From positions 48,257-112,256 of the forward strand of contig NZ_JACIGI010000014.1 of assembly GCF_014197795.1 (NCBI RefSeq): a stretch of DNA of 64,000 nucleotides, written 5' to 3'. This document shows positions 6,226-49,729 of this stretch, piece after piece. How positions within the stretch are numbered: the stretch's first letter is position 1; each line of letters starts with the position of its first letter. The notes below the pieces were generated by a model. The model was not told the origin of the DNA, ran no database searches, and saw nothing but the letters and a program-made list of their open reading frames with translations. The position numbers and the translations under genes were made by a program. This DNA is from Roseospira goensis (GTDB lineage Bacteria > Pseudomonadota > Alphaproteobacteria > Rhodospirillales > Rhodospirillaceae).

Positions 6226-6290
6226 CGCCGTCCGTCGCGGCATCTGCGGCGGGGCACGATCGGGCGGACAGGCAGGCAGGGGCGCGCGCG

Positions 6291-8748: not shown

Positions 8749-8866
8749 CTCGCTCCGGATCCGCCGTGTACAGTTTGGAACCATGGGCGGAACGACCCGT
8801 GCCGCGACGGATTGGGCCAGCAGGGGGACCGAGGCGGCGCTCGGCGGACGAACCGGGGTCCCGGAT

Positions 8867-8914
8867 GCCGGACCCCCAACGCCGAACCCCCAACGCCGGA
8901 CCCCCAACGCCGGA
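8867..8914. repeat. Three tandem copies of a 14-bp unit
   Basis: GCCGGACCCCCAAC occurs at 8867, 8881 (with one G to A change) and 8895, followed by a partial fourth copy. It lies in the 260-base gap between the fha gene and tssJ, which shows no other clear feature. Confidence 0.9.
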
Positions 8915-9011
8915 TCGGGACGCCCGGGTCAGCCTTGAATAATGGGTGGCCCCTCGACCGGGGCACACCGGATCAGGACCACCCTCCCGGGTCAACCTCA
9001 GGGGACGTGCC

Positions 9012-10979: not shown

Positions 10980-11038
10980 CGGGGTCATGACGGGCCGGCC
11001 GCCGCGCGGCGGTGCAGGCAGGGGGAGGGCGGACGGCG

Positions 11039-12583
11039 ATGGCCGACGACGACAACAACGATCCGTTCAGCGAGCCGGGCGACATTGATCGCACCGTGAT
11101 CCGGCCGACGCCGGGCCGGCGCCCCCCCGGGGGTGGCGGACCTGGCGGCGGACCTGGCGGCGGGCAGGGGCGCGCCGCGCCGCCGCCGCGCCAGCCCGCC
11201 CCGCCACCCCCACCGCCCGCCGCGGCGCGGGGGCCGTCGCCGTTCGAGGAACCGGAGCCCGCCGACGCCCCGGCGCGGCCGTCCCCGGGCGGCGCCCGGG
11301 CCGAACCGGGGCGCGGCGAGGGCGGACGCGCCACCGCCGGCGGCGGGGCGACCGCGGCGCCGGTCGGCGACATCGCCGAATCCCTCGCCGAACGCTCGCG
11401 CCACAACCCGATCGTGGCCGCCGCCGCGCCGCTGCTGAGCCTGATCGCCCGCCTGCGTCTGGGCGGCACCCACCGCGATCCGGACGCGCTGCGCGACCGC
11501 GTCATGGACGAGTTCGAGAGCTTCAACCGGCGCCTGAAGACCACCGACGTGCCCGAGGATCAGCATCGCACCGCCCATTACGTGCTGTCCGCCACCATGG
11601 ACGACGTGGTGCTCAACACCCCCTGGGGGTCGGGCTCGATCTGGGCGCGCGAGGGCATGACCGTCTGCTTCCACGGCGAGGCCTACGGCGGCAAGCGGTT
11701 CTTCAACCTGCTCAAGCGCATGAGCGACAACCCGGGCCGCAACGGCCGGGTGCTGGAACTGATCTATCTGTGCCTGTCGCTGGGCTTCGAGGGCGAGATG
11801 CGGGTGCTGGACCGCGGCCGCAGCGAGCACCGCCGCACCCGCGACGGCCTGTACCGGTTGCTGGCCGACATCCGCGGCGAACTGCCGGAGGACCTGTCGC
11901 CGCACTGGCGCGGCGTGACGGCGGGTCACCGGCCGGTCTCCTCGCTGATCCCGGTGTGGGTGATCGTCAGCGCCACCGCTGTTGCCCTGGTGTTGCTCTA
12001 CCTGGGGTTCGCCTGGTGGCTGAACTCCGACAGCGATGATCTCTACGCCGCCTTCGCCGGGCTGCCGCCGACCGGGGCCATCGTCATCGAACAGGTCACC
12101 CCGCCGCCGCCGCCACCGCCGGAGCCGCCGCCCGAGGTGGAAACCCAGGTCGAGCGGGTGCGCGGCTTCCTGGAGCCGGAAATCGCGGAGGGCTTGGTCA
12201 ACGTGCTGGAGAACGCCCAGGCGATCACCATCCGCCTGCGCGCGCGCGGCATGTTCGAGTCCGCCTCGGCCACCGTCAGCGAGCGGTTCAGCGAGGTCAT
12301 CCGGCGCGTCGGGCTGGCGCTCAACGACGAGCCGGGCACGGTGGTGGTCGAGGGCCACACCGACTCGCTGCCCATCCGCACCGTGCGCTTCCCGTCCAAC
12401 TTCGACCTGTCGCTGGCCCGCGCCGAGGCGGTGCGCGACCAGCTCAAGCCGCTGCTGACCGATCCGTCGCGCCTGACGGTGGAGGGCAAGGCGGCGACCG
12501 AGCCCATCGCCGACAACGGCACGCCGGAGGGCCGTGAGGCCAACCGCCGCACCGACATCATCCTCATCAAGCAGGGCACCTGA
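11039..12583 (+). CDS. tssL: T6SS inner-membrane protein TssL with OmpA domain
   Basis: A 514-residue extended TssL (IcmH/DotU). Residues 1-105 are a disordered, Pro/Gly/Ala-rich acidic start. The cytoplasmic DotU domain spans about 110-290 (ARHNPIVAAAAPLLSLIARL, then YVLSATMDDVVLNTPWG). One membrane segment is at about 303-327. A proline-rich periplasmic linker leads to an OmpA/MotB-type peptidoglycan-binding domain in the last 130 residues (VVEGHTDSLPI, SLARAEAV, NRRTDIILI). The OmpA domain lets the complex grip the cell wall without a separate TagL. The ATG at 11039 follows GGGGGAGGG; an in-frame GTG at 11012 is a less likely start. Confidence 0.93.
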   Translation: MADDDNNDPFSEPGDIDRTVIRPTPGRRPPGGGGPGGGPGGGQGRAAPPPRQPAPPPPPPAAARGPSPFEEPEPADAPARPSPGGARAEPGRGEGGRATAGGGATAAPVGDIAESLAERSRHNPIVAAAAPLLSLIARLRLGGTHRDPDALRDRVMDEFESFNRRLKTTDVPEDQHRTAHYVLSATMDDVVLNTPWGSGSIWAREGMTVCFHGEAYGGKRFFNLLKRMSDNPGRNGRVLELIYLCLSLGFEGEMRVLDRGRSEHRRTRDGLYRLLADIRGELPEDLSPHWRGVTAGHRPVSSLIPVWVIVSATAVALVLLYLGFAWWLNSDSDDLYAAFAGLPPTGAIVIEQVTPPPPPPPEPPPEVETQVERVRGFLEPEIAEGLVNVLENAQAITIRLRARGMFESASATVSERFSEVIRRVGLALNDEPGTVVVEGHTDSLPIRTVRFPSNFDLSLARAEAVRDQLKPLLTDPSRLTVEGKAATEPIADNGTPEGREANRRTDIILIKQGT

Positions 12584-12609
12584 CCGGCCCTGCACCCCGA
12601 CAGCGACGG

Positions 12610-15600
12610 ATGCCGACCGTGAGCAAGATCGCCTCCATCCTCAAGAGCGGCTGGTTCATCGGCCTGATCGGAACCCTGTTCCTCATCCTGCTGGTGTGGC
12701 TGCTCGGCCCCCTGATCGGCTTCGGCAGCGCCCGGCCGCTGGAAGGCATCGCCGCGCGCCTGCTGGTGTCCCTGATCCTGCTGGTGATCTGGGCCGGGTT
12801 CGTGGTCTGGGGCGTGCTGCGCCGACGCAAGCGCCAGGCGGCGCTGGTCGAGGGGGTGGCCGCGAACGCTGCCGCGGGGGGCGACGCCGGCCCGGAGGTG
12901 GAGGCGCTGCGCAAGGGGCTGGAGCGCGCCCTGGGCGAGTTGCAGCGCATGCGCCGCAAGGACGGCAAGAGCGGCCGTCAGTACCTGTACGAGCTGCCCT
13001 GGTACATGATCATCGGCCCGCCGGGGTCGGGCAAGACGACGGCGCTCTTGAACTCCGGCCTCGGCTTTCCGCTCGGCACCGACCCGCAACAGGCCAAGGT
13101 CTCGGGCGCCGGCGGCACCCGCAACTGCGACTGGTGGTTCACCGACGAGGCCGTGCTGCTGGATACCGCCGGGCGCTACACCACCCAGGACTCCGACGCC
13201 GCCGTGGACGCGGCGGCTTGGGGCGGCTTTCTGGGCATCCTGCGCAAGGCGCGCCCGCGCCAGCCGGTCAACGGCCTGATCGTGGCGATCAGCGTGTCCG
13301 ACATCCTGACCGCCTCGGAACAGGAGCGCCGCGCCCACGCCCTGTCGATCCGCAAGCGCATCGCCGAGCTGTACGACCAGCTCGGCCTCAGGCTGCCGGT
13401 CTACGTGCTGCTGACCAAGGTCGACCTGGTGGCCGGCTTCGTCGAGTTCTTCGCCGACATGCGGCGCGACGACCGCGCCCAGGTGTGGGGCATGACCTTC
13501 CCGTTCCGCGACCCCAAGCGCGATGAGGGGGCGGACCCGCTGGACCTGTTCCCGGGCGAGTTCGACCTGCTGCTGGAGCGGCTGGAACAGCGGCGCGTCG
13601 ACCGCTTGCACCAGGAGGACGACTACGCCCGCGCCGGCCTGATCGCCGGCTTCCCGCTCCAGGTGGCCTCGCTGCGCGAGCCGGTCATGCAGGTGCTGGA
13701 GGAGGCGTTCCGCGCCGGCCGCTACGAGGAGCCGGTGCTGCTGCGCGGTGTGTACTTCACCAGCGGCACCCAGGAAGGCACCCCCATCGACCGCGTCATG
13801 GCCGGGCTGGCCGGTCGCTTCGGCGTGCCGCCGGCGCGCTTCGGCGCCTTCCGGGGCCAGGGCCGCAGCTACTTCATCACCCGGCTGCTGCGCGAGGTGC
13901 TGTTCCAGGAGGCCGGCATGGTCGGCCGCAACCGCGCCGTGGAACGCCGCCAGCGCCTGATCCGCGGCGGCGCCATCGCCGCCGCCGCCGTGGTGCTGCT
14001 GACGGCTGTCGGGCTGTGGACCTGGAGCACCATCGTCAACCTGGACCTGATGGCGCGGGTGACGGACGGGCTGGCCCAGTACCGCACCCAGGTGGCGCAG
14101 ATTATTCCAGGCGACGGCGAGACCATGGTCGTGGAGTCCTCCGACCTGCTGCCGGTGCTGCCGCCGCTGGAGACGCTGCGCACCCTGCCGACCGGCTATG
14201 CGGAGAAGGACGCGCCGCGCCCGACCGGCTCCGGCTTCGGGCTCTACCAGGGCGACAAGCTGGCCCAGCAGACCCGCACCGCCTACCGCGAGGCCCTCAA
14301 CAGCCTGCTGCTGCCGCGCCTGACCTACCGCCTGCGCGAGATGCTGGTGCAGGCCCAGGAGACCGAGGCGCTGTACGGCCTGCTCAAGATGTATCTGATG
14401 GTCGGCGGACAGGGACCGGTGAACCCCGCGCTGCTGCGCCAGTGGGCGCATTTCGATGCGACCCGGCGCTACCCGGGCGCGCGCAACGAGCCGGCGCGGA
14501 CCGCCATCGACGGCCATGTCGCCGCGCTGACCGAGGCCACGCTGCGCACCATGCCGGTGGACGGCCCCCTGGTGCAGCGCACCCGCGAGATCCTGCAACG
14601 TCAGCCGCTGGCCGAACGGGCCTATGCCCTGATCCGCAACAGCCGCGCCGCCAAGGCGCTGCCCGAGTGGCGGGTGATCGACGCCGCCGGTCCGGCGGGC
14701 CGGCGCGTGTTCGTGCGCCGCTCCGGGGCCGGCCTCGACGAGGGCATCGACGGCTTCTACACCTACGACGGCTTCCACACGGTCTTCCTGCCGTCCCTGG
14801 TCGACGTGGCGCGCGAGGTGGCGTCCGAGAGCTGGGTTCTGGGCGCGGCCGCCACCCTGGACGACGCCCAGATCCGCCTGCTGGAGCGCGACCTCGCCGC
14901 GCTGTATATGGACGACTACGTGGCCGAGTGGGACGGCCTGCTGGGCGACATCGCTATCAAGCCGTTCGAGACCGCGAACGAGGCCACCGAGGTGCTGGCG
15001 ATCCTGTCGGGCGCCAACTCGCCCCTGCGCAACGTCCTGTATGAGGCGGCGCAGCAGACCCGGCTCGCCCGGCCGGAGGCGGACGGCGGCATCAGCGGCG
15101 CCATTGCCGGCCTGACCGCCGGCGGCAGCGCCACCCAACAGGCCGAGACGGTGGAACAGGCCGCCAGCGAGGCCCGCCAGGTGACCCAGACCCTGGGCCT
15201 GGGCACCGGGGCGCTCTCGACCATCGAGCGGTTGGCCGGCATCTTCTCCGACACCAGCTTCACCGGTGGCGGGGGCGGCATCGGCGGCGGCCTGGGCTCC
15301 GGCGCCGCCAGCGAACGGGCGCTGCCGGGCCAGTTCGTCAACGACCGCTTCCGTGCGCTGCACGAGTATGTGCTGGCGATGGATGGCGGCGCGCCACCTC
15401 TGGACGGAACCATCCGCCAGCTCGAGCAGGCCTACAACGAGCTGCGCCGGGTCGCCGACGGTGGCGGTAGCCTGGCCGCCATGACCGGCGTGGCCGGCGG
15501 CGGTGGCGGCGGTGGCGGCGTGGACGCCGTCCGGCGCCTGGAAGACGAGGCCGCGCAGGTGCCGGCGCCGCTGGCCGGCTGGCTGGAGCACATCGCCTCG

Positions 15601-16332
15601 GGCGGTCAGTCGGTCGCGGTCAGCAGCACCCAGGAGACCCTCAACGACGCCTGGACCGCCGATGTGCTGCCGCTGTGCCGTCAGGCCCTCCACAACCGCT
15701 ATCCGTTCGCGTCCGGCAGCGGCAGCGACGTGGCCCTGGCCGACTTCCAGCGGCTGTTCGCGCCCAACGGCCTGATCGACGGCTTTTTCCGGCAGAACCT
15801 GATGCGCTACGTCGACATGGGCCGCAAGCCGTGGCGCAGCCGGCGCCACAACGGCATCGACATCGGCCTGTCGCGCGCCACCCTGGCCCAGTTCGAACGC
15901 GCCGCCGCCATCCGCGACGCCTTCTTCCCCACCGGCGGGCTCCAGCTCAGCGTCCCGTTCGAGGTCACGCCGGTGTCGCTCGACGCCGGCGCCGACAGCG
16001 TGGTGATGGAGATCGACGGCCAGACCGTCCGTTATGCCCACGGGCCGGTGCAGGCGGCGCGGCTGAGCTGGCCCGGATCGGGCGGACGCACCCGCCTGAC
16101 GTTCCAAAGCGCGGCGACGGGACAGCCATCCATGGCGGCGTTCGCGGGACCATGGGCGTTCTTCCGCCTGCTGGACCAGGGCCGGCGCATGGGCGGCGGC
16201 ACCGGCGATCGCTTCCGGGTCCAGTTCAGCGCCGGCGGTCATGCGGCGGTGTTCGAGATCCGGGCCGGCAGCGTGATGAACCCGTTTAACCTGCCGGCGC
16301 TGAAGGCGTTCCGCTGCCCCGGGTCGCTGTGA
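12610..16332 (+). CDS. tssM: T6SS inner-membrane protein TssM (IcmF)
   Basis: A 1240-residue IcmF-type protein that spans the inner membrane and periplasm and binds TssL, TssK and TssJ. Two membrane helices lie at about residues 13-33 and 45-68 and a third at about 455-478. The cytoplasmic GTPase-like domain between them has an intact Walker A GPPGSGKT at 137-144 and a DTAGRY motif near 185. The long periplasmic part ends in the TssJ-binding region. Two Gly-rich stretches (about residues 885-900 and 960-975) are low complexity. The gap to tssL is 26 bases, and the stop is 8 bases before the tagF ATG, so the genes are almost certainly one operon. Confidence 0.95.
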   Translation: MPTVSKIASILKSGWFIGLIGTLFLILLVWLLGPLIGFGSARPLEGIAARLLVSLILLVIWAGFVVWGVLRRRKRQAALVEGVAANAAAGGDAGPEVEALRKGLERALGELQRMRRKDGKSGRQYLYELPWYMIIGPPGSGKTTALLNSGLGFPLGTDPQQAKVSGAGGTRNCDWWFTDEAVLLDTAGRYTTQDSDAAVDAAAWGGFLGILRKARPRQPVNGLIVAISVSDILTASEQERRAHALSIRKRIAELYDQLGLRLPVYVLLTKVDLVAGFVEFFADMRRDDRAQVWGMTFPFRDPKRDEGADPLDLFPGEFDLLLERLEQRRVDRLHQEDDYARAGLIAGFPLQVASLREPVMQVLEEAFRAGRYEEPVLLRGVYFTSGTQEGTPIDRVMAGLAGRFGVPPARFGAFRGQGRSYFITRLLREVLFQEAGMVGRNRAVERRQRLIRGGAIAAAAVVLLTAVGLWTWSTIVNLDLMARVTDGLAQYRTQVAQIIPGDGETMVVESSDLLPVLPPLETLRTLPTGYAEKDAPRPTGSGFGLYQGDKLAQQTRTAYREALNSLLLPRLTYRLREMLVQAQETEALYGLLKMYLMVGGQGPVNPALLRQWAHFDATRRYPGARNEPARTAIDGHVAALTEATLRTMPVDGPLVQRTREILQRQPLAERAYALIRNSRAAKALPEWRVIDAAGPAGRRVFVRRSGAGLDEGIDGFYTYDGFHTVFLPSLVDVAREVASESWVLGAAATLDDAQIRLLERDLAALYMDDYVAEWDGLLGDIAIKPFETANEATEVLAILSGANSPLRNVLYEAAQQTRLARPEADGGISGAIAGLTAGGSATQQAETVEQAASEARQVTQTLGLGTGALSTIERLAGIFSDTSFTGGGGGIGGGLGSGAASERALPGQFVNDRFRALHEYVLAMDGGAPPLDGTIRQLEQAYNELRRVADGGGSLAAMTGVAGGGGGGGGVDAVRRLEDEAAQVPAPLAGWLEHIASGGQSVAVSSTQETLNDAWTADVLPLCRQALHNRYPFASGSGSDVALADFQRLFAPNGLIDGFFRQNLMRYVDMGRKPWRSRRHNGIDIGLSRATLAQFERAAAIRDAFFPTGGLQLSVPFEVTPVSLDAGADSVVMEIDGQTVRYAHGPVQAARLSWPGSGGRTRLTFQSAATGQPSMAAFAGPWAFFRLLDQGRRMGGGTGDRFRVQFSAGGHAAVFEIRAGSVMNPFNLPALKAFRCPGSL

Positions 16333-16340
16333 GGGGGGCG

Positions 16341-17078
16341 ATGATGGCCGAGACGGGGGGTGGGATTGGCTTCTTCGGCAAGCTGCCGGCGCATGGCGAC
16401 TTCGTGCGCCGTGGCCTCGACCACGCCGTGGCGGCGGCGTGGGACGGCTGGCTGGGCGCGCTCATGATGGCCCTGCGCGAGGACCTGGGCGAGGACGACT
16501 GGCTGGACGCCTACCTGACCGGGCCGGTGTGGCGCTTCGCCACCGGCGGTGGGCTGGCGGGCCTCGACGGGGTGGCGCGCACCGGCGTGCTGGTGCCGAG
16601 CGTGGACCGGGTCGGGCGCTACTTCCCGCTGGTGATCGCCGCCGCCGCCGAGGGGTGCGAATCCCTGGCCGCCGCGGCGCGCGACGGCACCGCCTTGCTC
16701 GACGCCCTGGAGGCGCTGGCCCTGCGCGCGCTGGACGAGGACGACGAGTTGGAGGCCGACGCGCTCCAGGCGGCACTGGACGATCTGGCGTGGGACTGGC
16801 CGACGTCGGGCCGGGGGGCCGACGCCGCCGGGGTGTGGGTGCCGCTCGGCGGCGCGCAGCCGGGCGACGCGGTCGGCGCGGTGTGCCACCTGCTCGATGG
16901 GGCCGGGCGGCTGTCCCCAGGTGGGGCCGACGGCCTGTGGTGGACGGACGGCTCGGAGCGGGTCGAACCCGGCGTGCTGCGGGTGCACGGCTGGCCGCGC
17001 CCCACCGCCGCGGTGGCGCTGTTCGATGGGGCCTGGGGGGCGCGCGGCTGGCTCGGGCCGGACCCGGACCGGGGATAG
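16341..17078 (+). CDS. tagF: T6SS-associated protein TagF (ImpM)
   Basis: A 245-residue TagF-family protein. The N-terminal signature is GFFGKLPAHGDFVRRGL (from about residue 9) and the conserved GRYFPLVIAAA segment is near residue 95. In Pseudomonas TagF is a post-translational repressor of T6SS that acts by sequestering Fha; here it stands alone and is not fused to a PppA phosphatase. The presence of tagF together with the FHA protein suggests the same kind of control. The start overlaps the end of tssM in a GAGGGGGG-rich stretch; ATGs at 16341 and 16344 are both possible, and a GTG at 16329 is less likely. Confidence 0.88.
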   Translation: MMAETGGGIGFFGKLPAHGDFVRRGLDHAVAAAWDGWLGALMMALREDLGEDDWLDAYLTGPVWRFATGGGLAGLDGVARTGVLVPSVDRVGRYFPLVIAAAAEGCESLAAAARDGTALLDALEALALRALDEDDELEADALQAALDDLAWDWPTSGRGADAAGVWVPLGGAQPGDAVGAVCHLLDGAGRLSPGGADGLWWTDGSERVEPGVLRVHGWPRPTAAVALFDGAWGARGWLGPDPDRG

Positions 17079-40046: not shown

Positions 40047-41003
40047 CTACGACTGCATGGTCAGGCGGGGATCGGTGTCGGCGCCGGAGCAGACCTGGTT
40101 GCGGCCGTTCCTCTTGGCCGTGTACAGACGCTCGTCGGCGAGGGCGATGAAACGTTCGGCCACCCCGTTCACCTCGGACGCCAGCGCCAGACCGATCGAC
40201 ACCGTCAGCGGCACGGGCTCGCCCTTGGATGTCAGCGGGTTGCTCTCGATCGCCTGTCGTACCCGTTCCGCGATCCGCACCGCGCCCTCCGCATCCACGT
40301 CGGTCACCACCATGACGAACTCCTCGCCGCCATAGCGGCCGGCGATGTCCTTGTCCCGGATCTCGTGGCGCAACAGGGTGGAGACGTGGCACAGGGCCTC
40401 GTCGCCGAAGGGGTGGCCGTGGGTGTCGTTGATGACCTTGAAGTGATCGAGATCGACCATCAGCAGCGCCAGACGGTCGAGTCGCTTGCGGGCCGCGGCC
40501 AGGCGTTGCTCCAGTACGCCAAGAAAGTATCTTTTGTTGTAGAGGCGGGTGAGCGGATCGTGTGCGGCGTTGTCGAACAGGCGGTTCTGGTAGTGCTGCT
40601 CCGATTCGGTGACGTAGGCGAACTTGAACGAGACGCTGCCGCCAAGGCCGATCACGTCCTGGTCGTGGAGGACGCGCCGGTCGACACGGTCGCCGTTGAC
40701 GGTCAGGCCGTTGCTGGAGCGCAGGTCAAAGGCCTCGACGCCGTCCGCGGTGGAGATGAGGCGCGCGTGCCGGCGGCTGACCGTGGCCTCCAGGACCTGG
40801 ATATCGCACTCATCAGCGCGCCCGAGCAGCGTTTCGTAGCTGTCGAGCACGTAGATGCGCCCGGCATCGTGCCCGGTCAACGCCACGAGGGACGGCAGCA
40901 CGCCGCCCTTGGTGACCGGACCTGACTTGTCGTATTCAAGGTGAACCGTCAGGTCGCTGGTTGTATCGTCGTCCGAGGAGACCACGCGAGAGGCCCAACC
41001 CAT
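40047..41003 (-). CDS. FHA-GGDEF diguanylate cyclase
   Basis: A 318-residue soluble protein. Residues about 40-130 are an FHA domain (LLGRADECDIQV, SRRHARLIS, SSNGLTVNG), which binds phosphothreonine. The C-terminal half is a GGDEF domain with an active-type GGEEF near residue 222. An RxxD sequence (RDKD) lies exactly five residues before it, the position of the product-inhibition site. It should therefore make cyclic di-GMP under phosphorylation-dependent control and be feedback inhibited. The Ser/Thr kinase encoded at 45134-48892 is a possible partner. It is divergent from the ycaO-tfuA operon across a 165-base AT-richer region. Confidence 0.9.
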   Translation of the reverse strand: MGWASRVVSSDDDTTSDLTVHLEYDKSGPVTKGGVLPSLVALTGHDAGRIYVLDSYETLLGRADECDIQVLEATVSRRHARLISTADGVEAFDLRSSNGLTVNGDRVDRRVLHDQDVIGLGGSVSFKFAYVTESEQHYQNRLFDNAAHDPLTRLYNKRYFLGVLEQRLAAARKRLDRLALLMVDLDHFKVINDTHGHPFGDEALCHVSTLLRHEIRDKDIAGRYGGEEFVMVVTDVDAEGAVRIAERVRQAIESNPLTSKGEPVPLTVSIGLALASEVNGVAERFIALADERLYTAKRNGRNQVCSGADTDPRLTMQS

Positions 41004-41050
41004 TGTACGGTCATGAAATCGTCTCTGGCTGACGAACGAACGAGGCTATC

Positions 41051-41176
41051 ATGCCATGCCTGCATTTTGAAGAAAATCGTCCCATGGTTTTAAGGGAAAA
41101 TTCTTCACGGTTCAGTCGGGCGTCTGATAAGCTGTTGGCTCCATTTACTGCGGACCGGGGATTGATTCATGAGTAA
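41051..41176 (+). CDS. Possible small peptide gene upstream of the ycaO-tfuA operon
   Basis: A 41-codon open frame (MPCLHFEENRPMV... ending GLIHE) that overlaps the start of the next small gene by 8 bases. The ATG has a modest ACGAGG six bases upstream. The base composition is AT-rich like the rest of this intergenic region, so a chance open frame is quite possible. If real, it would be coupled to the 74-residue gene. No family was recognised. Confidence 0.22.
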   Translation: MPCLHFEENRPMVLRENSSRFSRASDKLLAPFTADRGLIHE

Positions 41177-41393
41177 GAAGTACGAGCATGGGATCACCAT
41201 CAAATGGGGCGCGGAGTTGTACTATGTCCCCATGGAAACGTGGCAAAAACAAACGGTTCCGGATGACCTGCGCGCCGAAGTCACGCAGTTGATCGACCGC
41301 GGCGCGATTCTCGCCTCGATTTCCCAGACCGGGGAAGGCATTGGGTCGGCCTGCTACCTGATCGACCTGAGTGCCATCCGCTCCGACGAATAA
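41169..41393 (+). CDS. Small protein at the head of ycaO-tfuA, candidate modification substrate
   Basis: A 74-residue protein with no signal peptide or membrane segment, containing a single cysteine in GIGSACYLIDL near residue 62. Its coding sequence is visibly less GC-rich than the flanking ycaO and tfuA genes and uses A/T-ending codons such as AAA and GTT. It is preceded by a weak GGGGAT ribosome binding site. The ycaO frame starts within or just after its stop, so the three genes look translationally coupled. I do not recognise the family. As the only small gene in a YcaO-TfuA operon, it is the natural candidate for the peptide or protein that is modified, but an accessory role such as substrate recognition is equally compatible. 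Confidence 0.65.
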   Translation: MSKKYEHGITIKWGAELYYVPMETWQKQTVPDDLRAEVTQLIDRGAILASISQTGEGIGSACYLIDLSAIRSDE

Positions 41394-42726
41394 GGGCGTG
41401 GACGGATCGTCCCGCCACGGGCCGGACCGTGCGGAAGGCGCGCCGTCCGGCCCGACTCCGGCGGATGCCGGCAAGGGCTACCGCACCGGCACCCATCGCC
41501 TGCGGGCGCCGGCCGAGACGCTGGCCTGCGTGACACCCCACCTGGCGGCGATGGGCATCACCCGGATCGCCACCATCACCGGCCTGGACCGGGTCGGGCT
41601 GCCGGTGGTGGCGGTCTATCGGCCCAATGCCCGCTCGGTCGCGGTCTCCCAGGGCAAGGGCATCGACCTCGCGGCCGCCAAGGCGTCCGGCGTCATGGAG
41701 GCGATCGAGAGCCACCATGCCGAACACCCGGATCTGGCGCTGCGGCTGACGTCGGAGCACGACCTGCGGGCCGCCGGCCACGCCGTCGTGGCGACGCAGC
41801 GGCTGCCGCGCCTGTCGGTGAGCCGCTTCGACGCCCGCACGCCGATCCTGTGGTGCGCGGCCCGGGATCTGATGGCGGCCCCCGGGCGCACCGCGGTGCC
41901 GCTGTGGGTGCCGTTCGAGATGGTGCATACCAACTACACCCGCCCGCTGCCGGCCGGGAGCGGGCATTTCCAGATGAGTTCGAACGGGCTCGCCTCCGGC
42001 AACCATCCCCTGGAGGCGATCGGCCACGGCCTGTGCGAGGTGATCGAGCGCGACGCCCTGGCGCTGTGGGCGCTGCGCGGCGGCACCGACAGCGACCGCG
42101 GACGGCTGGATCTGGACACCGTCGACGACCCCACGGCCCGTGATCTTCTGGCGCGGCTGGCGGCGGCGGACTTGGCGGTCGGCGTCTGGGACATCACCAC
42201 CGACGTCGGCGTGCCGGTGTTCGTCTGTGCCCTGGCCGATCGCACCACCAACCACCTGGGGCAGGTGTATTCCAGCCACGGCTCCGGCTGCCATCCGGCG
42301 CGCGCGATCGCGCTGTGCCGGGCGCTGACCGAGGCCGCCCAGACCCGCCTGACCTACATTGCCGGCACGCGCGACGATGCCCACCGCACCCTGTTCGAGA
42401 CCGCGCGCAACCCCGACCGGGTGGCGGCGGTGCGGGCGCGCCTGGAGACGCCGCCGCAGGGGGCGGGGCGGGCCTTCGCGGCGGTGCCCAGCCATGAGAC
42501 CCTCCGCTTCGACGACGATGTGACCTGGATCCTGGCGCGGCTGGCGGCGGTCGGCATCACCCAGGCGGCCGTGGTGACGGTCCCCGCCCGCATCCCCGGG
42601 ATCGCGGTGGTGCGGGTGATCGTGCCGGGGCTGGAGGGCCTGCACGACGCGCCCGGGTATGTGCGCGGGGAGCGGGCGATGGCCCTCGCCCGGGACCGGG
42701 CCGACGGCGGAGCACCGGCGGCATGA
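41371..42726 (+). CDS. YcaO-family cyclodehydratase/thioamide synthetase (TfuA-associated)
   Basis: A 451-residue YcaO protein; these enzymes use ATP to activate backbone amides. The family core is seen from GKGYRTGTHRLRAPAETL (about residue 35) through SQGKGIDLAAAKASGVMEAIE near 94 and LCEVIERDALALWAL near 222. The C-terminus (RDRADGGAPAA) lacks the PxPxP ending found in azoline-forming YcaOs. Paired with TfuA, the expected reaction is backbone thioamide formation. The GTG at 41371 overlaps the small upstream gene by 23 bases; another in-frame GTG at 41398 lies just after its stop. The conserved region starts well downstream of both. Its stop overlaps tfuA by four bases (ATGA). Confidence 0.88.
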   Translation: MPSAPTNKGVDGSSRHGPDRAEGAPSGPTPADAGKGYRTGTHRLRAPAETLACVTPHLAAMGITRIATITGLDRVGLPVVAVYRPNARSVAVSQGKGIDLAAAKASGVMEAIESHHAEHPDLALRLTSEHDLRAAGHAVVATQRLPRLSVSRFDARTPILWCAARDLMAAPGRTAVPLWVPFEMVHTNYTRPLPAGSGHFQMSSNGLASGNHPLEAIGHGLCEVIERDALALWALRGGTDSDRGRLDLDTVDDPTARDLLARLAAADLAVGVWDITTDVGVPVFVCALADRTTNHLGQVYSSHGSGCHPARAIALCRALTEAAQTRLTYIAGTRDDAHRTLFETARNPDRVAAVRARLETPPQGAGRAFAAVPSHETLRFDDDVTWILARLAAVGITQAAVVTVPARIPGIAVVRVIVPGLEGLHDAPGYVRGERAMALARDRADGGAPAA

Positions 42727-44141
42727 GCCTCGTGGTCTTTCTCGGTCCCACGCTGCCGGCGCGCGAGGTCGCCGCCCGGCTGCCCGAGGCCGACCTGCGC
42801 CCGCCGGTGTCGCAGGGCGACGTCCTGCGGGCCGTGCAGGCGGGGGCGCGCGCCATCGGCATCGTGGACGGCTATTTCGAGCGCGTGCCGGCGGTCTGGC
42901 ACAAGGAGATCCTGTGGGCGCTGAGCCGGGGCGTGGTGGTGTACGGGGCCGCCAGCATGGGCGCGCTCAGGGCGGCAGAACTGCATCCCTTCGGCATGGT
43001 CGGGGTTGGCGCGGTGTTCGCGGCCTTTCGGGACGGGGTGCTGGAGGACGACGACGAGGTGACGGTCGCGCACGGGCCGGCCGAGATCGGCTATCCCCTG
43101 ACCTCCGTGGCGCTGGTGGATATGCGCGCCACCCTGGAGGCGGCCCGGGCCGCCGGGGTGGTGTCGCCCGCCACCCATGAGGCCCTGATCGCCCTGGCCA
43201 AGCGGACCTACTACCCCAACCGATCCTACGAGGCCCTGCTCGCGGACGCCGCCGCCGCAGGTCTGCCGGCCGACGAGACCGCCGCCCTGGCGGCGTGGCT
43301 GTCGGGCGGCCGGGTCGAGCGCAAGGCCGCCGACGCCCGCGCCCTGCTGGACGCCCTGGCCGACCTGAGGGACGGGGCCGCGCCGCCGCCCCCGCCGCCC
43401 GCCTTCCATTTCGAGCGCACCGACGCCTGGGAGCAGGTCGCCCGCCGGGACGGCCACCAGGTCGCCGCCGCCGTGCCGGACGCCGTGCCGCTGGAGGCGC
43501 TGCTGGACGAGCTGCGCCTGCGCGGCACCGACTATCACCGTACCCTGTCGGTCTGCTTCGCCCGCGCCCTGGCCCTGCAGGAGGCCGAGCGGCATCCGGC
43601 GCCGCTCGACCGCGCCGTGTTCCGCGAGGTGCTGCACGGCTTCTTCCAGGAGCGCGGTCTGCGCACACCGGCGGAGATCGCGGACTGGCTGGCGGTGCAG
43701 CGCCTGGACGCCGACGACCTCACCGCCTTCATCGCGCGCGAGGCCCGGATCGCCCGCGTCGAGACCCTGGCCCGCGACGCCATCCGCGCCCAGGTGCCCG
43801 ATGCGTTGCGCGGCGCCGGGCTCTACGGGCCGCTGGCCACGCGCGCCGAGGCCAAGCGGCGCTGGCTGGCCGAGGCCGGGCTGGAGGCCGTCGGGGCGGC
43901 CGACCGCGGCCAGGACGCGGACGGCCTGCTGCGCTGGCACTTCACGGAGCGGCGCGGCGAGCCGGTGCCCGCCGACCTGGAGGCGCACGCCCGCGCCCTC
44001 GGCCTCGCCAATCGCCACGCGCTCCTTCAAATGCTGGTGCGTGAGTTCCTGTACGTCCGCCATGTCGAGGGCGACCCGGCCCCCGCGTCCGCCGCCCCGG
44101 ACGGGGCGGACACGGCGGACGATCCGGCGGCGCCGGCGTGA
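42723..44141 (+). CDS. tfuA: TfuA-domain protein, YcaO partner
   Basis: A 472-residue protein with an N-terminal TfuA core in residues 1-230. Recognisable parts are VVFLGPTLPAREV at the start, then IGIVDGYFERVPAVWHKEILWAL near 40-65, GAASMGALRAAEL near 80 and the TYYPNRSYEALL segment near 160. TfuA stimulates YcaO thioamidation and is named after the trifolitoxin locus. The remaining 240 residues are helical and unlike the core; they may bind substrate or YcaO. It is four-base coupled to ycaO, and its convergent neighbour starts 13 bases after its stop. Confidence 0.88.
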   Translation: MSLVVFLGPTLPAREVAARLPEADLRPPVSQGDVLRAVQAGARAIGIVDGYFERVPAVWHKEILWALSRGVVVYGAASMGALRAAELHPFGMVGVGAVFAAFRDGVLEDDDEVTVAHGPAEIGYPLTSVALVDMRATLEAARAAGVVSPATHEALIALAKRTYYPNRSYEALLADAAAAGLPADETAALAAWLSGGRVERKAADARALLDALADLRDGAAPPPPPPAFHFERTDAWEQVARRDGHQVAAAVPDAVPLEALLDELRLRGTDYHRTLSVCFARALALQEAERHPAPLDRAVFREVLHGFFQERGLRTPAEIADWLAVQRLDADDLTAFIAREARIARVETLARDAIRAQVPDALRGAGLYGPLATRAEAKRRWLAEAGLEAVGAADRGQDADGLLRWHFTERRGEPVPADLEAHARALGLANRHALLQMLVREFLYVRHVEGDPAPASAAPDGADTADDPAAPA

Positions 44142-44154
44142 TCCGCGCGCGGCC

Positions 44155-45033
44155 TCAGCCCGCCAGGCATGCGGCGATGTAGGCGTCGAGCGGGCTCGGG
44201 TCGTGGCCCAGCACCTCCCGGGCCTCGGTGTTGTCGATGGCGCAGCCATGGCGGGCACAGATCATCATCAGCGCCCCGAACGACCGCGCCAGGGGGTCGT
44301 CGCCGGCCATCATCGCGTCCAGGTCCGCCTCCGGCACCACCTCGCGCTCGAACGACCGTCCCGCGGCGCGCTCGAAGCGGGCGATGACCTCGGTCTGCGG
44401 CAGCGCCTCCGGTCCACCGAGCCGCAGGGTGCGGTTGAGCGCCTGCGGGGTGTCCAGGGCGGCGGCCGCCGCCTTGGCGACGTCGGCCATGGCGATCCAG
44501 CTGATCGGGCCGGCGCCCTCGCCAAACACCCGCGCCTTGGCGTTGGCGGGGTCCAGGCCCAGCGCCGGGCTCAGCCACACCTCGCGGAAGTGCGTGGGCT
44601 GCAGGATGGTGTAGGGCACGCCGCTGTCCCGGATCGCCGCCTCGACGGCCCGCTTGGCGTCCTGCAACGGGAACGACGACCGATCGGGCGGGAACGAGAC
44701 GAACACGATCTGGCGCACGCCCGCCGCCCGCGCCGCCGCCACCAGCGCGAGCTGTCCCTGGTGGTCTACGGCCTCGATGGTGTCGCCCTCGGCCCGGGAC
44801 AGGGTGGCGGAGGCGGTGGAGATGACGGTGTCGGCCCCGGCGCAGGCCGCCGTCAGCGAGGCCGGATCCTTGATGTCCCCGACCACCGTCTGGACGCCGG
44901 CGGCGCCCAGGGCGGCCACCGTGTCCGGGGCGCTGCCGGCCCGCACCAGCGCCCGCACCGGCCGGTCCGCCGCCGCCAGCCGCTGGCAGATGTCCCGTCC
45001 CAGAATGCCCGTCGCTCCGACGACCAGATCCAT
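44155..45033 (-). CDS. NAD(P)-binding NmrA-like oxidoreductase
   Basis: A 292-residue atypical short-chain dehydrogenase. The nucleotide-binding motif VVGATGILGRDICQRL is at the N-terminus, followed by RALVRAGS and VVGDIKDPASL, typical of NmrA/HSCARG-type NAD(P)H-binding proteins. The catalytic YxxxK is not evident, so a redox-sensing or isomerase role is as likely as dehydrogenase activity. The substrate is unknown. It is convergent with tfuA and 100 bases downstream of the large kinase gene on the same strand; the relation to either is unclear. Confidence 0.8.
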   Translation of the reverse strand: MDLVVGATGILGRDICQRLAAADRPVRALVRAGSAPDTVAALGAAGVQTVVGDIKDPASLTAACAGADTVISTASATLSRAEGDTIEAVDHQGQLALVAAARAAGVRQIVFVSFPPDRSSFPLQDAKRAVEAAIRDSGVPYTILQPTHFREVWLSPALGLDPANAKARVFGEGAGPISWIAMADVAKAAAAALDTPQALNRTLRLGGPEALPQTEVIARFERAAGRSFEREVVPEADLDAMMAGDDPLARSFGALMMICARHGCAIDNTEAREVLGHDPSPLDAYIAACLAG

Positions 45034-45133: not shown

Positions 45134-48100
45134 TCACAGGAACCCCAACTCCCGCGCCGCGTCCACGGCCGCCGCCAGGGCCTCGCGCGCCGATGCCGCG
45201 TCGTCCGCCGCCAGGGCGCGGCCGAGCGCGTCGTGGATCGGGTCGGGCAGGTGGCATTGCGGCGGCTCGTGCAGCCGGCGCGCCAGCGCCAGGATCTCCG
45301 CGTCCGGGGCCCGGTCGCGCGCCAGGGCCAGGGCCACCAGGCCGGCGGTCCACTGGAACGGATAAGCGAACGACAGGCCGGCCCAGGTCTCCAGCGCCGA
45401 TGCGCACAGGCGGTCGGCGGCCGCCGCCTCGCCGCGCCGCCAAGCCGCCCAGCCCAGCGCGGCCAGGGCAACGCCCTGGTAGTCCCGCATGCGTCGGGCC
45501 TTGGCGATCGCCAGCAGGGTTTCGGCGACCGCGGCGGTCTGCTCCACCCGGCCCCGGCGCCGGTGCAGGACCGCCAGATAGGCCACGGCACGGGTCTCGC
45601 CGGCGGCGTCGCCGATGCGGCGGCAGCCCTGGGCGGCCTCGAACAGCACCGCCTCGGCCTCCTCCAGCTCGCCCGCGAACAACAGGGCGAAGCCCAGGAT
45701 GAAGTGGGCGAAGGCGATCTCCGCCGCGCCCGCCGACTCCTGCGCCGCCTCCAGCATGCGGCGGGCGAAGACCAGCGTCTCCCCGGGCACGCGGTAGCGG
45801 TATCGGCGGTGGTTCCGGTTCACCAGCGCCATGAAGTAGTGATAGCGCTGGGTCGGGACGGGGTCGCCTTCGACGAACGGCCGGACGGACTCCAGCGCGG
45901 TGTCGATGTCCCCGGGGCGGTCCAGCCAGTAGTAGACCCAGACACGGTTGAGGACGATCTGGATCCACTCCTGACGCCCCGCGGCGTCGAGCGCGTCCTG
46001 GTCACCCAGCGCGATCTCGCCGTCGCGGTAGGTGCGCAGGGCGGCGTCGTGGTCGTGTTCGATCTCGTAGGTCTTGCCGGCCTTCCGGTGCAGCCGCGCC
46101 AGGGTCACCCGGTCATCGGTGGCGTCGGTCGCGGTGCGCGCGAACGCCGCCCGGGCGTCGGCATGGCGGTTCTGGAGGGCCAGGGCATCGCCGAGCCGCT
46201 CGTTCAGGGTCACGGCTTCGCGACGCCAGCGGCCGTCGTCATCGCCGCGCGCCCGCAGCCCGGCCACCGCGTCAAGGGCCGCCTGGTACAGCCCGATGGC
46301 GTCGGCCACCGACTGGAACCGCTCGGCCCGCTCGGCGGCGGCGCGCAGGTGCGGCACCGCCAGGGCCGGCTCGCCGGCCAGCGCCCAGTGACGTCCAAGG
46401 TCGGCGCGGTGGTCGTCGCGCGCCTCGCCCGCCGGGTAGACGGCCTCGATCGCCTGGGCCAACTGCCGGTGCAGGGCGCGGCGGGTGTCGGCCGGGATGC
46501 CGGCGTCGGCGATCTCCCGGATCTTGTCGTGGACGAAGCGGTAGCCCTCGCCCTCCGCCGGCTCGACGATCTGGCGCGAGACCAGCTCGTCCGCGACCTC
46601 CGTCATGGCGGCGTCCGACAGTCCGGCGGCCCGGCCCAGCACGGTGCTGTCGAGGTGGCGGCCCATCAGCGCGGCGAGGTCCACCACCCGCCGGTCCGCC
46701 GCCGTCAGCTTGCCGAGACGCAGGTCGATCAACTGGCGCAGGGACCCGGGCAGCGGCAGCGACTCGTAGTCCGGGGCGCCCCCGACGTCCTGTCCCGAGA
46801 GTGTCCAGCGTCCGCTGCGGTCGCGCGCCAACACCCGCTCGGACACCGCGCTGCGCAGGTACTCGGCGATGAAGAACGGATTGCCGTTGCTGCGCTCGGC
46901 CAGGAAGCGCACGAAGCCGGCGGGCGGGCTGCGCATGGCCAGCATGCCGCCCGCCATGGCACCGATGTCCGCGGCCGTCAGGCGGTGCAGGGTGTGGGCG
47001 TCGACGGCGGGGTCGCGGGCCAGGGCATCCAGGGCCGGGGTGCGCTCTTCGGCCCGGAACGCGCCCACGACCAGCAACGGGAGGCCGGGCAGGACCTCGT
47101 CCAGCAGGTGGCGCAGGACCCCGAGGGTCAGTTCGTCGGCCCATTGCAGATCATCCAGCACCAGCAGCAGGGCGCGGTCCACCAGGTAGGCCGCCAGGCT
47201 GTCGGCCAGGGCGCGGAACAGGCGGTCGCGCGCGGCGGCGCTCGGCAGCGGGGGCGCGGCGGGCAGGGCGGCGACGCCGGGCACCGTCTTCAGCACCGGG
47301 AAGTAGGGGGCCAGCACGGCCGCGCGATCGCCCAGAAGACGGGCCTGCTCGGCCGGCCCGCCGGCGATACACCGGTCCGCCAGCGCCTCCACGAAGGGGC
47401 GCAGCGGCTGCAACGGCGCGCCGCGGCCGTAGCGGGCCGCGCCGTCGCCGTCGCCCGCCGCCGGGCAGTCCCCGGTGATCACCTCCAGGCTCCGCCGGCG
47501 CGCCAGGATACCGGTCTCCAGGGCGAGCCGGGTCTTGCCGGCCCCGCTCTCCCCGGCCACCAGGGCGAGGGCGCCCGTTCCGGCGCGGGCCCGCGCGAGA
47601 TGCTCGTCCAGGGCCGCGAGCACATCCTGGCGGCCGACGAAGGACGACCGGTACAGATACGGCTTGGCGGCGGGCGCGGGTACCGACCAGACGGGCGGAT
47701 GCGTCCCCAGATCGGCCAGCGCACAGGCCACGGTTTCCGCGAAGCCCAGGCGGTCGGCCCGGTCCTTGGCCAGCAGCGCGTCGACGAGCCGGTCGAGCGT
47801 CGGCGGAACGCCGGTCACCCGGGCCGAGGGCGGCCCGGCGTGGCGCTCAAGGTGCCCCGAGAGGATCTGGGTCTGGCTGCCGACGAACGGCGCCTCGCCG
47901 GTGAGGACCTGGTAGAGGATGCAGCCGAGGGCGTACAGATCGCTGCGGGCGTCCAGCGCATCGCCGCGGAGCTGCTCCGGCGACATGTAGGCGGGCGAGC
48001 CGCTAATCTGATGCGTCTCGCCGATCTGTTCCCGCCCGGTGGCCCCGCCGGCCTCCTCGGCCAGGCCGAAGTCGGCCAGGATCGGTTCCCCCGAGTGGCG

Positions 48101-48892
48101 GATGAAGATGTTCCCGGGTTTCAGGTCCCGGTGCACGATGCCCTCGCCGTGCAGGAACGCCAGGGTCTCGCACACCCGCTGGAGCAGCGAGAGGCCCTCG
48201 CCCAGGTGCCCGGCGGCGGCCGGGCCACCGGCGCGGCGGGTCCGGGGCCGGACCGGTGTGTCGGCGGCCGGCGCGTCGGCGTCTCCGCCTCCGAACGCGT
48301 GCGGCGGGGCGCCCGGGTCCTGGACCGTGATGGCGCCGTCATCGCTGGCGGGGCCGCCGTCCGGGAAGATCACCTGCGTGGCGTCGGTGGCGTCGGTGGC
48401 GTCGGCGACCAGGGTGGCGTCGGCGCCCTGGGTGGCGTCTGCGGCGTCGGTGGCGTCGGTGACCTGGGTGGCCCCGGTCGCCACGCCTGCGGCGTCGGTG
48501 ACGTCCTGGGTCAGGTCCTCGGTGGTGTCGCCGACCGGGGCCGGCCTCGGCGGCGCGGCGGGGTCGCGCCAGTGGCGGCGCAGCAGATCCTTGAGGCTGG
48601 TGCCGTCCAGGTGCTCCATCGCGTACCAGGGCAGGCCGTCGGCCACGCCATGGTCGAGGATGCGGACCACGCCGGGGTGGTGCAGGCGGGCCAGCGCCCG
48701 AATCTCGCGGCGAATCTGGCGCAGCCGCGAGACCTCCTTGCGGTTGACGGTCTTGATGGCCGCCGCGGTACCCGTGCGGGCGTCGATCCCGGCGTAGACG
48801 ATCCCCATCGCACCCTGGCCGAGCACGCCGACCACCCGGTAGGGGCCGATCGTCTCCGGCGCGTGGGTCGTGGTCCTGGACGTCTGCTGCAT
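45134..48892 (-). CDS. Ser/Thr protein kinase fused to AAA ATPase and TPR regions
   Basis: A 1252-residue multidomain protein. The kinase domain (about 15-380) has the glycine loop GQGAMG at 25-30, the ATP lysine at Lys47, and HRDLKPGN from His254 with the later ADFGLA. About 105 residues of low-complexity sequence (DATDATDATQ type) are inserted between its two lobes at roughly 115-222. A second ATPase domain starts near residue 440, with Walker A GESGAGKT near 446-453 and the LVLDDLQWAD Walker B. The C-terminal half is TPR-like helices. This layout is typical of bacterial signalling kinases that sense through the ATPase/TPR part. The ATG at 48892 puts the kinase fold at the right distance; an upstream extension is in repeats. 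Possible targets are the FHA proteins in this window. Confidence 0.88.
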   Translation of the reverse strand: MQQTSRTTTHAPETIGPYRVVGVLGQGAMGIVYAGIDARTGTAAAIKTVNRKEVSRLRQIRREIRALARLHHPGVVRILDHGVADGLPWYAMEHLDGTSLKDLLRRHWRDPAAPPRPAPVGDTTEDLTQDVTDAAGVATGATQVTDATDAADATQGADATLVADATDATDATQVIFPDGGPASDDGAITVQDPGAPPHAFGGGDADAPAADTPVRPRTRRAGGPAAAGHLGEGLSLLQRVCETLAFLHGEGIVHRDLKPGNIFIRHSGEPILADFGLAEEAGGATGREQIGETHQISGSPAYMSPEQLRGDALDARSDLYALGCILYQVLTGEAPFVGSQTQILSGHLERHAGPPSARVTGVPPTLDRLVDALLAKDRADRLGFAETVACALADLGTHPPVWSVPAPAAKPYLYRSSFVGRQDVLAALDEHLARARAGTGALALVAGESGAGKTRLALETGILARRRSLEVITGDCPAAGDGDGAARYGRGAPLQPLRPFVEALADRCIAGGPAEQARLLGDRAAVLAPYFPVLKTVPGVAALPAAPPLPSAAARDRLFRALADSLAAYLVDRALLLVLDDLQWADELTLGVLRHLLDEVLPGLPLLVVGAFRAEERTPALDALARDPAVDAHTLHRLTAADIGAMAGGMLAMRSPPAGFVRFLAERSNGNPFFIAEYLRSAVSERVLARDRSGRWTLSGQDVGGAPDYESLPLPGSLRQLIDLRLGKLTAADRRVVDLAALMGRHLDSTVLGRAAGLSDAAMTEVADELVSRQIVEPAEGEGYRFVHDKIREIADAGIPADTRRALHRQLAQAIEAVYPAGEARDDHRADLGRHWALAGEPALAVPHLRAAAERAERFQSVADAIGLYQAALDAVAGLRARGDDDGRWRREAVTLNERLGDALALQNRHADARAAFARTATDATDDRVTLARLHRKAGKTYEIEHDHDAALRTYRDGEIALGDQDALDAAGRQEWIQIVLNRVWVYYWLDRPGDIDTALESVRPFVEGDPVPTQRYHYFMALVNRNHRRYRYRVPGETLVFARRMLEAAQESAGAAEIAFAHFILGFALLFAGELEEAEAVLFEAAQGCRRIGDAAGETRAVAYLAVLHRRRGRVEQTAAVAETLLAIAKARRMRDYQGVALAALGWAAWRRGEAAAADRLCASALETWAGLSFAYPFQWTAGLVALALARDRAPDAEILALARRLHEPPQCHLPDPIHDALGRALAADDAASAREALAAAVDAARELGFL
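48377..48464. repeat. Degenerate Ala-Thr-Asp-encoding repeat within the kinase gene
   Basis: GTGGCGTCG units of 9 bases, some altered to GCGACCAGG or similar, encode repeated ATD and AT residues in the inserted region of the kinase. The array keeps the frame and is likely to vary in length. Confidence 0.75.
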
Positions 48893-48997: not shown

Positions 48998-49729
48998 TCA
49001 GGGCGTGTCGGCGCCGGCTTCGTAGTCGATCGGCTGCCAGAGCGCCCATTGCGGATTATCACCTGCCGGGGCGGCCGTCATGGCCTTTTTCACCGCCGGC
49101 TGGCCCGCCAGCCACGCCACCGCCTCCTCGGCCGGCGGCAGTCCGGCCGGCGTCGCCCACACATGGACGTACCGCCGCAGCCGGCCGGTCTGGGCGTAGC
49201 TTCCCAGCACGAACGTGAAGCCGTAGTCGCGCACCATGGGGCTTTGGGGGTCGGCGATGGTGTCGATCATGAAGGTCTCGAACTGCGAGAGCGGCTCGGG
49301 ATCGGCCACGACATCGAAGGTGATATGCAGGTAATAGCGGGTGTTGGACGGGAACTGAAAGCCAGGGTCGGTCGACAGCGGATTGTACTGGAGCGCACCG
49401 AAGAAATCCTGGACTTCGCGCAACACCATCCCGTCGAGCTGCCGGTACACCTCGTCGTCGTCGAAGTACTCCATGATGTAGGGTAGGGAATTGTAGTCCC
49501 GCACCCGCCACACATGCAGGTACTGCTGCACGTCGGGTGTCGTCCCTGCGCTCGACGGCTCCTCGCCCGGCTTTCGGGTTGCCGACAGGACCAGCCGCCA
49601 GCCCGGCCACGGCGTTTCCTGAAAGGTCGGCAGCAGCTCGCGCATGTACTGCGCGAACATCTGGTTGAGCTGTGCCCCGCTCGGCAGATCGAGTGTGACC
49701 TGGAGATAGCGGACGGGCGCCTGGGTCAT
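48998..49729 (-). CDS. Protein of unknown function with two related halves
   Basis: A 243-residue soluble protein that seems to consist of two similar repeats, each a beta strand start (YLQVTLDL; YYLHITFDV), a helix, and a second strand followed by YLHVWRV or YVHVWAT. This pattern suggests a ferredoxin-like dimeric alpha-beta barrel arranged as an intramolecular pair, as in NIPSNAP or ABM-type proteins, but I could not place the family. The ATG at 49729 follows GGGAGGC. It is upstream of the kinase gene on the same strand and could share its transcript. No catalytic motif was found. Confidence 0.7.
   Translation of the reverse strand: MTQAPVRYLQVTLDLPSGAQLNQMFAQYMRELLPTFQETPWPGWRLVLSATRKPGEEPSSAGTTPDVQQYLHVWRVRDYNSLPYIMEYFDDDEVYRQLDGMVLREVQDFFGALQYNPLSTDPGFQFPSNTRYYLHITFDVVADPEPLSQFETFMIDTIADPQSPMVRDYGFTFVLGSYAQTGRLRRYVHVWATPAGLPPAEEAVAWLAGQPAVKKAMTAAPAGDNPQWALWQPIDYEAGADTP

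Follow-up and report, generated by a model that had tools for sequence, protein, structure and literature searches.

The YcaO and TfuA proteins encoded side by side in Roseospira goensis raise a simple question: what does this pair act on? We addressed it in a stretch of 64,000 nucleotides from contig NZ_JACIGI010000014.1 (positions 48,257 to 112,256 of the forward strand, RefSeq assembly GCF_014197795.1), which we call the window and whose numbering we use for its genes. There, ycaO and tfuA directly follow a gene for a protein of 74 residues, hereafter P74. Comparison with other loci supports P74 as the substrate of the pair, and a signalling function is the hypothesis that we would attach to it. 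In the reading we favour, P74 is a dedicated substrate in which YcaO-TfuA makes a thioamide, and the product is sensed by a neighbouring AAA kinase that acts on cyclic di-GMP (c-di-GMP); we find this plausible as a whole and stop short of calling it probable. The three genes are:

41169..41393, + strand: P74, 74 residues, proposed thioamidation substrate (identity to relatives, codon analysis, low-confidence model).
41398..42726, + strand: YcaO, predicted ATP-dependent backbone-activating enzyme (Pfam, NCBIfam, start sites of relatives).
42723..44141, + strand: TfuA, extended at its C-terminus by about 250 residues (Pfam, NCBIfam, alignment).

The frames and coordinates given by a previous, sequence-only reading of this DNA hold: the three genes are consecutive on the + strand, and the last four bases of ycaO are also the first four of tfuA (42723-42726). 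That reading placed ycaO in overlap or near-overlap with the small gene. Near-overlap is the likelier: ycaO probably starts at a GTG at 41398, after a gap of 4 bases, and not at the overlapping GTG at 41371, because ycaO in the relatives begins right behind the stop codon of the small gene.

P74 goes together with ycaO-tfuA wherever we found it. A scan of genome contigs gave six relatives. The protein occurs in 3 of 318 genomes of the order, all with tfuA, in 4 of 385 genomes of a class sample and, in a phylum sample of 398 genomes, in the window's own genome only; plasmids and viral contigs gave no relatives. Taken together, there are eight distinct loci (the window, L012, L013/G464, L014, L015/G155, L016/G152, L017/G526 and L034/G615). 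In all eight P74 directly precedes ycaO-tfuA, and their adjacency therefore exceeds chance. TfuA matches were found in 10 of the 318 genomes of the order (9 over the cut-off); the six further genomes catalogued under the genus had none. The gene meaB, a neighbour of the locus, is present in two species of the genus that lack TfuA, and the 16 kb around it contain none of the other genes described here. One of the eight loci, L014 (JANQQD010000078.1), comes from a record labelled Anaerolineae bacterium; its YcaO nests among alphaproteobacterial YcaO in the tree, and the contig is probably misbinned.

The small protein is more conserved than the two enzymes. Across the P74 loci, identity to the window protein is 69-96% for P74 (7 relatives), 57-76% for YcaO and 47-71% for TfuA. 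In the alignment of 8 sequences 41 of the 74 columns are invariant, and residues 53-70 are almost so (QTGEGIG[SA]ACYL[IV]DLS[AS]I), which bears out the suspicion that the C-terminal GIGSACYLIDL region is conserved. This tail, the most conserved part of P74, is nearly constant over four bacterial families; the conserved leader and variable core of a thioamidated ribosomally synthesized and post-translationally modified peptide (RiPP) are not what we see. The gene is under purifying selection, since nonsynonymous and synonymous divergence between the window and L013 are 0.03 and 1.27 (dN and dS); within residues 53-70 of this pair, 6 codons differ and no residue does. All but one of the P74 pairs with a value have dS >0.7, and their tails change by 0-2 residues. 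The distinct base composition noted earlier is real (G+C of 0.577 versus 0.721 for the whole window). As a sign of foreign origin it fails: all 8 members have a G+C of 0.49-0.59, lower than that of their own locus every time, so that low G+C is a property of the family and we rejected recent import.

P74 has no counterpart among described families. With this and its constant place beside ycaO-tfuA, two of the three outcomes that would have spoken against the sequence-only reading did not arise. Its best Pfam hit, DUF3218, scores 12.8 of 25 bits and none is above the cut-off; NCBIfam gave no match. Neither database matched it to a RiPP recognition element or PqqD-like winged helix, and the weak structural model (mean predicted local distance difference test score 66.3, low confidence) is beta-beta-alpha-beta-beta. 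It has strands at residues 9-13 and 16-20 (9-20 being modelled as a beta hairpin), a helix at 32-43 and strands at 47-51 and 62-66; residues 55-59 and 72-74 are least certain. A fold search with this model matched no solved fold at E 0.001.

The enzymes themselves are a thioamidation pair in the sense of adjoining YcaO and TfuA domains (PF02624, E 1.4e-73; PF07812, E 3.1e-47), an arrangement shared with the pairs of thioviridamide, thiovarsolin and McrA thioglycine. The window differs from these in its scores on the McrA models, which lie below the cut-offs, in the long extension of TfuA and in its dedicated, conserved 74-residue protein. The McrA thioglycine models TIGR03266 (YcaO, 200 of 365 bits) and NF033432 (TfuA, 205.6 of 235.2 bits) are nonetheless the nearest in NCBIfam. 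By sequence, the nearest solved structures are MJ1094 for YcaO and, for the N-terminal part of TfuA alone, 6xp8. As for ATP-binding residues, the YcaO of 8 relatives shows no variation in stretches such as SQGKG, MEAIE, NGLASGN, ERDA and RALTEAAQ, several of which line up with the sequence of MJ1094. Within the extension of TfuA, which may serve in substrate binding, residues 259-348 show weak similarity (E 1.7e-7, below the cut-off) to TIGR04500, described as a putative peptide maturation protein. According to passages of PMC5589413, PMC13063428 and PMC8939145, the reaction passes through an O-phosphorylated intermediate, by which YcaO activates the backbone amide; sulfide then replaces the oxygen, and TfuA takes the sulfur from thiocarboxylated ThiS. 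A search of the window's genome gave one YcaO match and two ThiS-like matches, and the latter could be the sulfur carriers.

The sequence-only reading described a three-gene system. The trio is real, but it does not stand alone, as it is part of a neighbourhood with four further genes:

40047..41003, - strand: FHA-GGDEF protein, predicted phosphothreonine reader and diguanylate cyclase, divergent from P74 (in 7 of 8 P74 loci).
41004..41168, no strand: intergenic region between the divergent FHA-GGDEF and P74 genes.
44155..45033, - strand: NmrA-like NAD(P)-binding protein (Pfam; in 7 of 8 P74 loci).
45134..48889, - strand: Ser/Thr protein kinase with AAA_16 ATPase and TPR-like tail, proposed receptor (domain search, relative of TIGR03903).
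48998..49729, - strand: X, 243 residues, without known family, two alpha-beta halves predicted with low confidence.

The kinase-AAA, NmrA and FHA-GGDEF genes adjoin P74 in seven of the eight loci, and X is present in all six whose examined DNA reaches that far. Among 316 genomes of the order, X occurs in 3, which are exactly the P74 genomes; searches of plasmids and viral contigs gave none. The window's arrangement recurs in L012, L013, L014 and L017, with X seen in the longer DNA of G464 and G526. In two Telmatospirillum genomes all seven genes are co-directional and arranged as P74, ycaO, tfuA, X, kinase, NmrA, FHA-GGDEF. The large protein has clear Pkinase (E 2.2e-44) and AAA_16 (E 3e-21) domains and no cyclase match at E 0.1. 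It retains HRDLKPGN and DFG, and the diguanylate cyclase retains GGEEF, which we take to be the characteristic motifs of kinases and diguanylate cyclases, respectively. X is 50-75% identical to its five relatives; domain searches found no enzyme family for it, its model is weak (64.3) and has two similar alpha-beta halves, and comparison of X and P74 with the sequences of solved structures gave chance-level matches only. We would assign X and NmrA tailoring or accessory roles. In the intergenic region, a G-rich stretch ahead of the P74 start is a possible ribosome-binding site; beyond it the upstream DNA of the relatives is little alike, and no common operator was recognised in it. In the eighth locus, L034 of genome G615, a class III cyclase-TPR-like gene adjoins X. 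As judged by eye, P74-ycaO-tfuA-X is flanked there by this cyclase-like gene and by siderophore-like transport and synthesis genes (4651-6393 and 10305-16526). We also considered a known anti-phage defence system and rejected it, as the kinase domain alone gave matches to PADLOC models: the kinase had 34, of which all 25 listed are best in that domain, and the other 6 proteins were unmatched at E 0.01.

A more distant locus type links P74 to the AAA protein. Two Sinorhizobium loci (L047 and L046) have open reading frames (ORFs) of 98/99 residues some 30-40 bases before ycaO, a distance that we measure here and below to the aligned part of ycaO, start codons being unproven. The Sinorhizobium ORF aligns over nearly the whole length of P74 (pairwise E 8e-4), and each is the other's best match outside its own group among 17,073 ORFs, in one direction only just. 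The common stretches are P-x-E-x-W (L047 only), L[IL]-x-x-G-x-x-LA and G-[ST]-(A)-C-[YW]-L-[IV]-[DN], the last one including the cysteine; Gly59 is the sole loop glycine retained. The AAA protein has a fused cyclase as output domain in Sinorhizobium and a kinase at the P74 loci. In a tree of the AAA part and tail (26 rows), the Sinorhizobium and P74 proteins nevertheless form one clade (support 100/99); the remaining AAA proteins linked to ycaO fall outside it, as do AAA proteins encoded at other sites in some of these genomes. This tree omits the long-branched L096 and L100; with all 28 rows, the Shimodaira-Hasegawa-like approximate likelihood ratio support is 100. The YcaO tree, in which 13 of 34 inner branches are open, gives no reliable position for the Sinorhizobium pair relative to the P74 loci. 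Judging from these comparisons, the type of small protein and the type of AAA protein have stayed coupled through descent, and the output domain has changed. Such a pairing would fit a ligand and its receptor, and co-inheritance of the cluster followed by domain exchange would look alike.

The association of AAA proteins with ycaO-tfuA extends beyond P74. In an unselected class sample, a TfuA search of 240 genomes gave 18 places in 14 genomes, and 9 of them have an AAA gene no more than about 8 kb away, against 0.12 expected by chance (Poisson, relatedness ignored). This estimate is based on about 25 AAA genes in the 14 genomes, found with one AAA query and with rows merged by hand; of the 18 places, one lies on a contig of 4.6 kb, some others have less than 8 kb of sequence to one side, and L076 shows no YcaO by two queries. 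Three of the nine AAA-linked places are P74 modules, and 6 of 15 remain without these. On Azospirillum plasmids, ycaO-tfuA is found with a cyclase-AAA protein, a Crp regulator and an ORF of 64-65 residues ahead of ycaO; in Rhizobium sp. CIAT894 it is found with an AAA protein whose cyclase match is below threshold. A Crp/Fnr-type gene closely follows tfuA at L068, L069, L071, L073, L075, L038 and L040-L045, and all of these loci except L068 also have a cyclase-AAA or AAA gene nearby. The combination of Crp/Fnr and cyclase-AAA genes beside tfuA is a possible cyclic AMP (cAMP) circuit.

Several of these loci have precursor-like ORFs where P74 would be. An N-terminal motif, D-G-x-L-[YF]-x-[VIL], occurs in ORFs before ycaO at L069, L071, L073, L075, L041 and six Azospirillum loci. 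The corresponding leader pattern, composed after several such ORFs had been seen, matches 12 of 32 loci (6 of the 12 from Azospirillum) versus 20 of 1514 control windows, so that the P value calculated for this contrast understates the role of chance. At L069 (G402:C3), an ORF of 138 residues starts with DGHLYRI, has five copies of a DDSQRHAANFIGT core, ends 493 bases before ycaO and is likely a repeat-core peptide precursor. At L071 (G394:C24), an ORF starting with DGVLYEV has about 20 copies of an AGRWA[IV][TS]P core, ends 120 bases before ycaO and adjoins ycaO-tfuA, a Crp gene and a cyclase-AAA gene. Repeated cores occur in some known precursors, including that of thiovarsolin (in passages of PMC6511847). 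Another ORF, of 133 residues and 76 bases before ycaO at L079 (G447), has a start, LLRARDDTLFFVPLSELVERYRLPDD, like the N-terminus of P74 and three GKQRFA repeats; no AAA gene was found near it. At L023 (G113:C92), a tandem pair of very similar 116-residue ORFs lies upstream of ycaO-tfuA (8662-9009 and 9179-9526, - strand), possibly precursors of another kind. Inspection by eye of small ORFs near ycaO-tfuA at L024 and L025 gave none that was convincing.

An AAA protein of signalling type next to YcaO-type peptide modification is already known in kind, given the nearness of the window protein to TIGR03903 (TOMM system kinase/cyclase fusion protein) and the kinase beside precursors in Burkholderia, which we take to be TIGR03903 itself. 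By its name, TIGR03903 accompanies YcaO-type peptide-modifying clusters. The AAA part of the window protein aligns with it (E 5.7e-65, best stretch residues 416-903), but the protein reaches 219.9 bits versus a cut-off of 705.75 and has a kinase only, without cyclase; the AAA protein of L025 matches at E 8.7e-165, and none of the 5 proteins scanned reached the cut-off. A 2010 BMC Biology paper places a large Ser/Thr kinase beside the Burkholderia precursors (PMC2887384); its clusters, unlike the window, use a cyclodehydratase-docking fusion, and TfuA is not mentioned in the passages concerned. As for TfuA-associated YcaO, passages of a 2015 survey leave them aside, their substrates being then unknown (PMC4603692). 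A 2021 genome-mining survey of thioamidated RiPPs interprets the numerous proteobacterial members as RiPP clusters (PMC8120280), and its main text nowhere uses the words kinase, adenylate, AAA, ATPase, Crp or signal. Adenylate cyclases are among the genes of complex ATP-grasp clusters, one branch of which also has YcaO and TfuA (passages of PMC8939145), and these would be a partial precedent for a cyclase beside YcaO-TfuA. Our literature searches, which left most subscription papers and preprints outside their scope, found no paper joining TfuA with diguanylate cyclase, and none joining thioamidation, YcaO and Alphaproteobacteria. Of 203 papers matched for TfuA with quorum sensing or tetratricopeptide, the six listed do not mention TfuA.

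Two further likenesses are of a more general kind. The STAND regulators PknK and MalT combine a kinase or output domain, an AAA ATPase and a TPR-like tail, as the window kinase seems to; no sugar or DNA-binding role is implied. RRNPP receptors bind signal peptides through TPR domains, an analogy only, as they differ in their enzymes and have neither a thioamide nor an AAA domain.

In the mechanism that we propose, the N-terminal part of P74 would be a recognition element. The amide that YcaO would activate lies, on this view, in the backbone of the C-terminal region, and the sulfur for a thioamide would come from TfuA. Our best guess for the site is the glycine-rich loop near the invariant Cys62, above all Gly59, because no other glycine of the loop has a counterpart in the aligned Sinorhizobium homologue. 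We infer that modified P74, or a fragment of it, would remain in the neighbouring signalling system, where the large protein would bind it through its AAA and TPR-like part, which would switch the fused kinase; the FHA-GGDEF protein would then read the phosphorylation and change c-di-GMP. The suggestion of the sequence-only reading that the system may act on a cellular protein found no direct support; the evidence agrees better with P74 itself having a part in signalling.

Several observations weigh against this proposal. The similarity between P74 and the Sinorhizobium ORF is weak: with a profile hidden Markov model, L047 has an E-value of 1.4 and the next ORF 2.2, and the best P74 has an E-value of 0.019 with phmmer. 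The strict leader pattern matched none of the 4 P74 and 2 Sinorhizobium loci tested, and IKWGAELYYV in P74 is merely reminiscent of the motif. The TPR match in the kinase tail is poor (TPR_12, E 0.012, 16.2 of 30.1 bits). G615 has P74-ycaO-tfuA-X without adjoining kinase, NmrA or FHA-GGDEF genes, and a kinase search of its genome gave no match; the kinase is therefore not indispensable to the P74 system. The FHA-GGDEF protein is not exclusive to the module either, as a 63% identical one is encoded in a species of the same genus (L089, G205:C7, 8441-9376), where the other module genes are absent from the 15 kb examined around it. Finally, regulators are common beside biosynthetic genes and need not sense the product, and conservation over the full length would also fit P74 being a folded protein partner instead of a leader-core precursor.

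This last point bears on the choice, already offered by the sequence-only reading, between substrate and recognition partner. As an adaptor, P74 would itself stay unmodified and recruit another protein (X, the kinase or a cellular one) to YcaO-TfuA. Its invariant columns throughout, the compact fold predicted with low confidence and the co-inheritance of X with P74 are all consistent with this. However, P74 matches no known recognition domain in Pfam or NCBIfam, and its conservation peaks in the C-terminal region that contains the least certain loop of the model, and not only in the predicted core. In addition, the same place is occupied at other AAA-linked loci by repeat-core, precursor-like ORFs; together with the Sinorhizobium homologue, these comparisons favour P74 as a substrate over a mere partner, and we retain the adaptor as an unlikely rival.

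The repeat-core ORFs, with five copies at L069 and about twenty at L071, are found with similar enzymes and AAA-cyclase neighbours, and they raise the alternative of an ordinary thioamidated RiPP cluster: P74 would be a precursor whose C-terminal peptide is freed by a protease encoded elsewhere, and the role of the kinase, FHA-GGDEF and NmrA genes would be limited to regulating the cluster. TIGR03903 offers a precedent for a regulator-like protein in peptide-modifying clusters (passages of PMC2887384). Yet the tail of P74 hardly varies over four families and no exporter or protease was recognised among the genes common to P74 loci, which makes this alternative rather unlikely. Antibiotic precursors usually have variable cores. 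Among cofactors, pyrroloquinoline quinone (PQQ) and mycofactocin derive from conserved precursor ends. The nearly invariant tail of P74, with its single invariant cysteine beside a glycine-rich loop, might likewise give a small thioamide cofactor or metal ligand, with X and NmrA as possible tailoring or user enzymes; but X has no enzyme family and NmrA is not beside P74 in G615, and we regard this as very improbable.

Returning to P74 as a thioamidated signal, the proposal could be widened to a class of thioamide signalling widespread in Alphaproteobacteria. In it, a thioamidated small protein would be the intracellular ligand or self-produced pheromone of an AAA/TPR-like receptor with which it co-evolves, and the output would swap between a kinase (c-di-GMP, through FHA-GGDEF) and a cyclase (cAMP, with Crp at many loci). 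This extension is speculative and, for now, rather unlikely. In any case, a fixed and conserved small protein within a kinase/c-di-GMP module is a concrete candidate substrate for a TfuA-associated YcaO, and the repeat-core ORFs are further candidates for thioamide products. The pairing of P74 type and AAA type gives a clear binding hypothesis, and the P74 module suggests that backbone thioamides can serve signalling.

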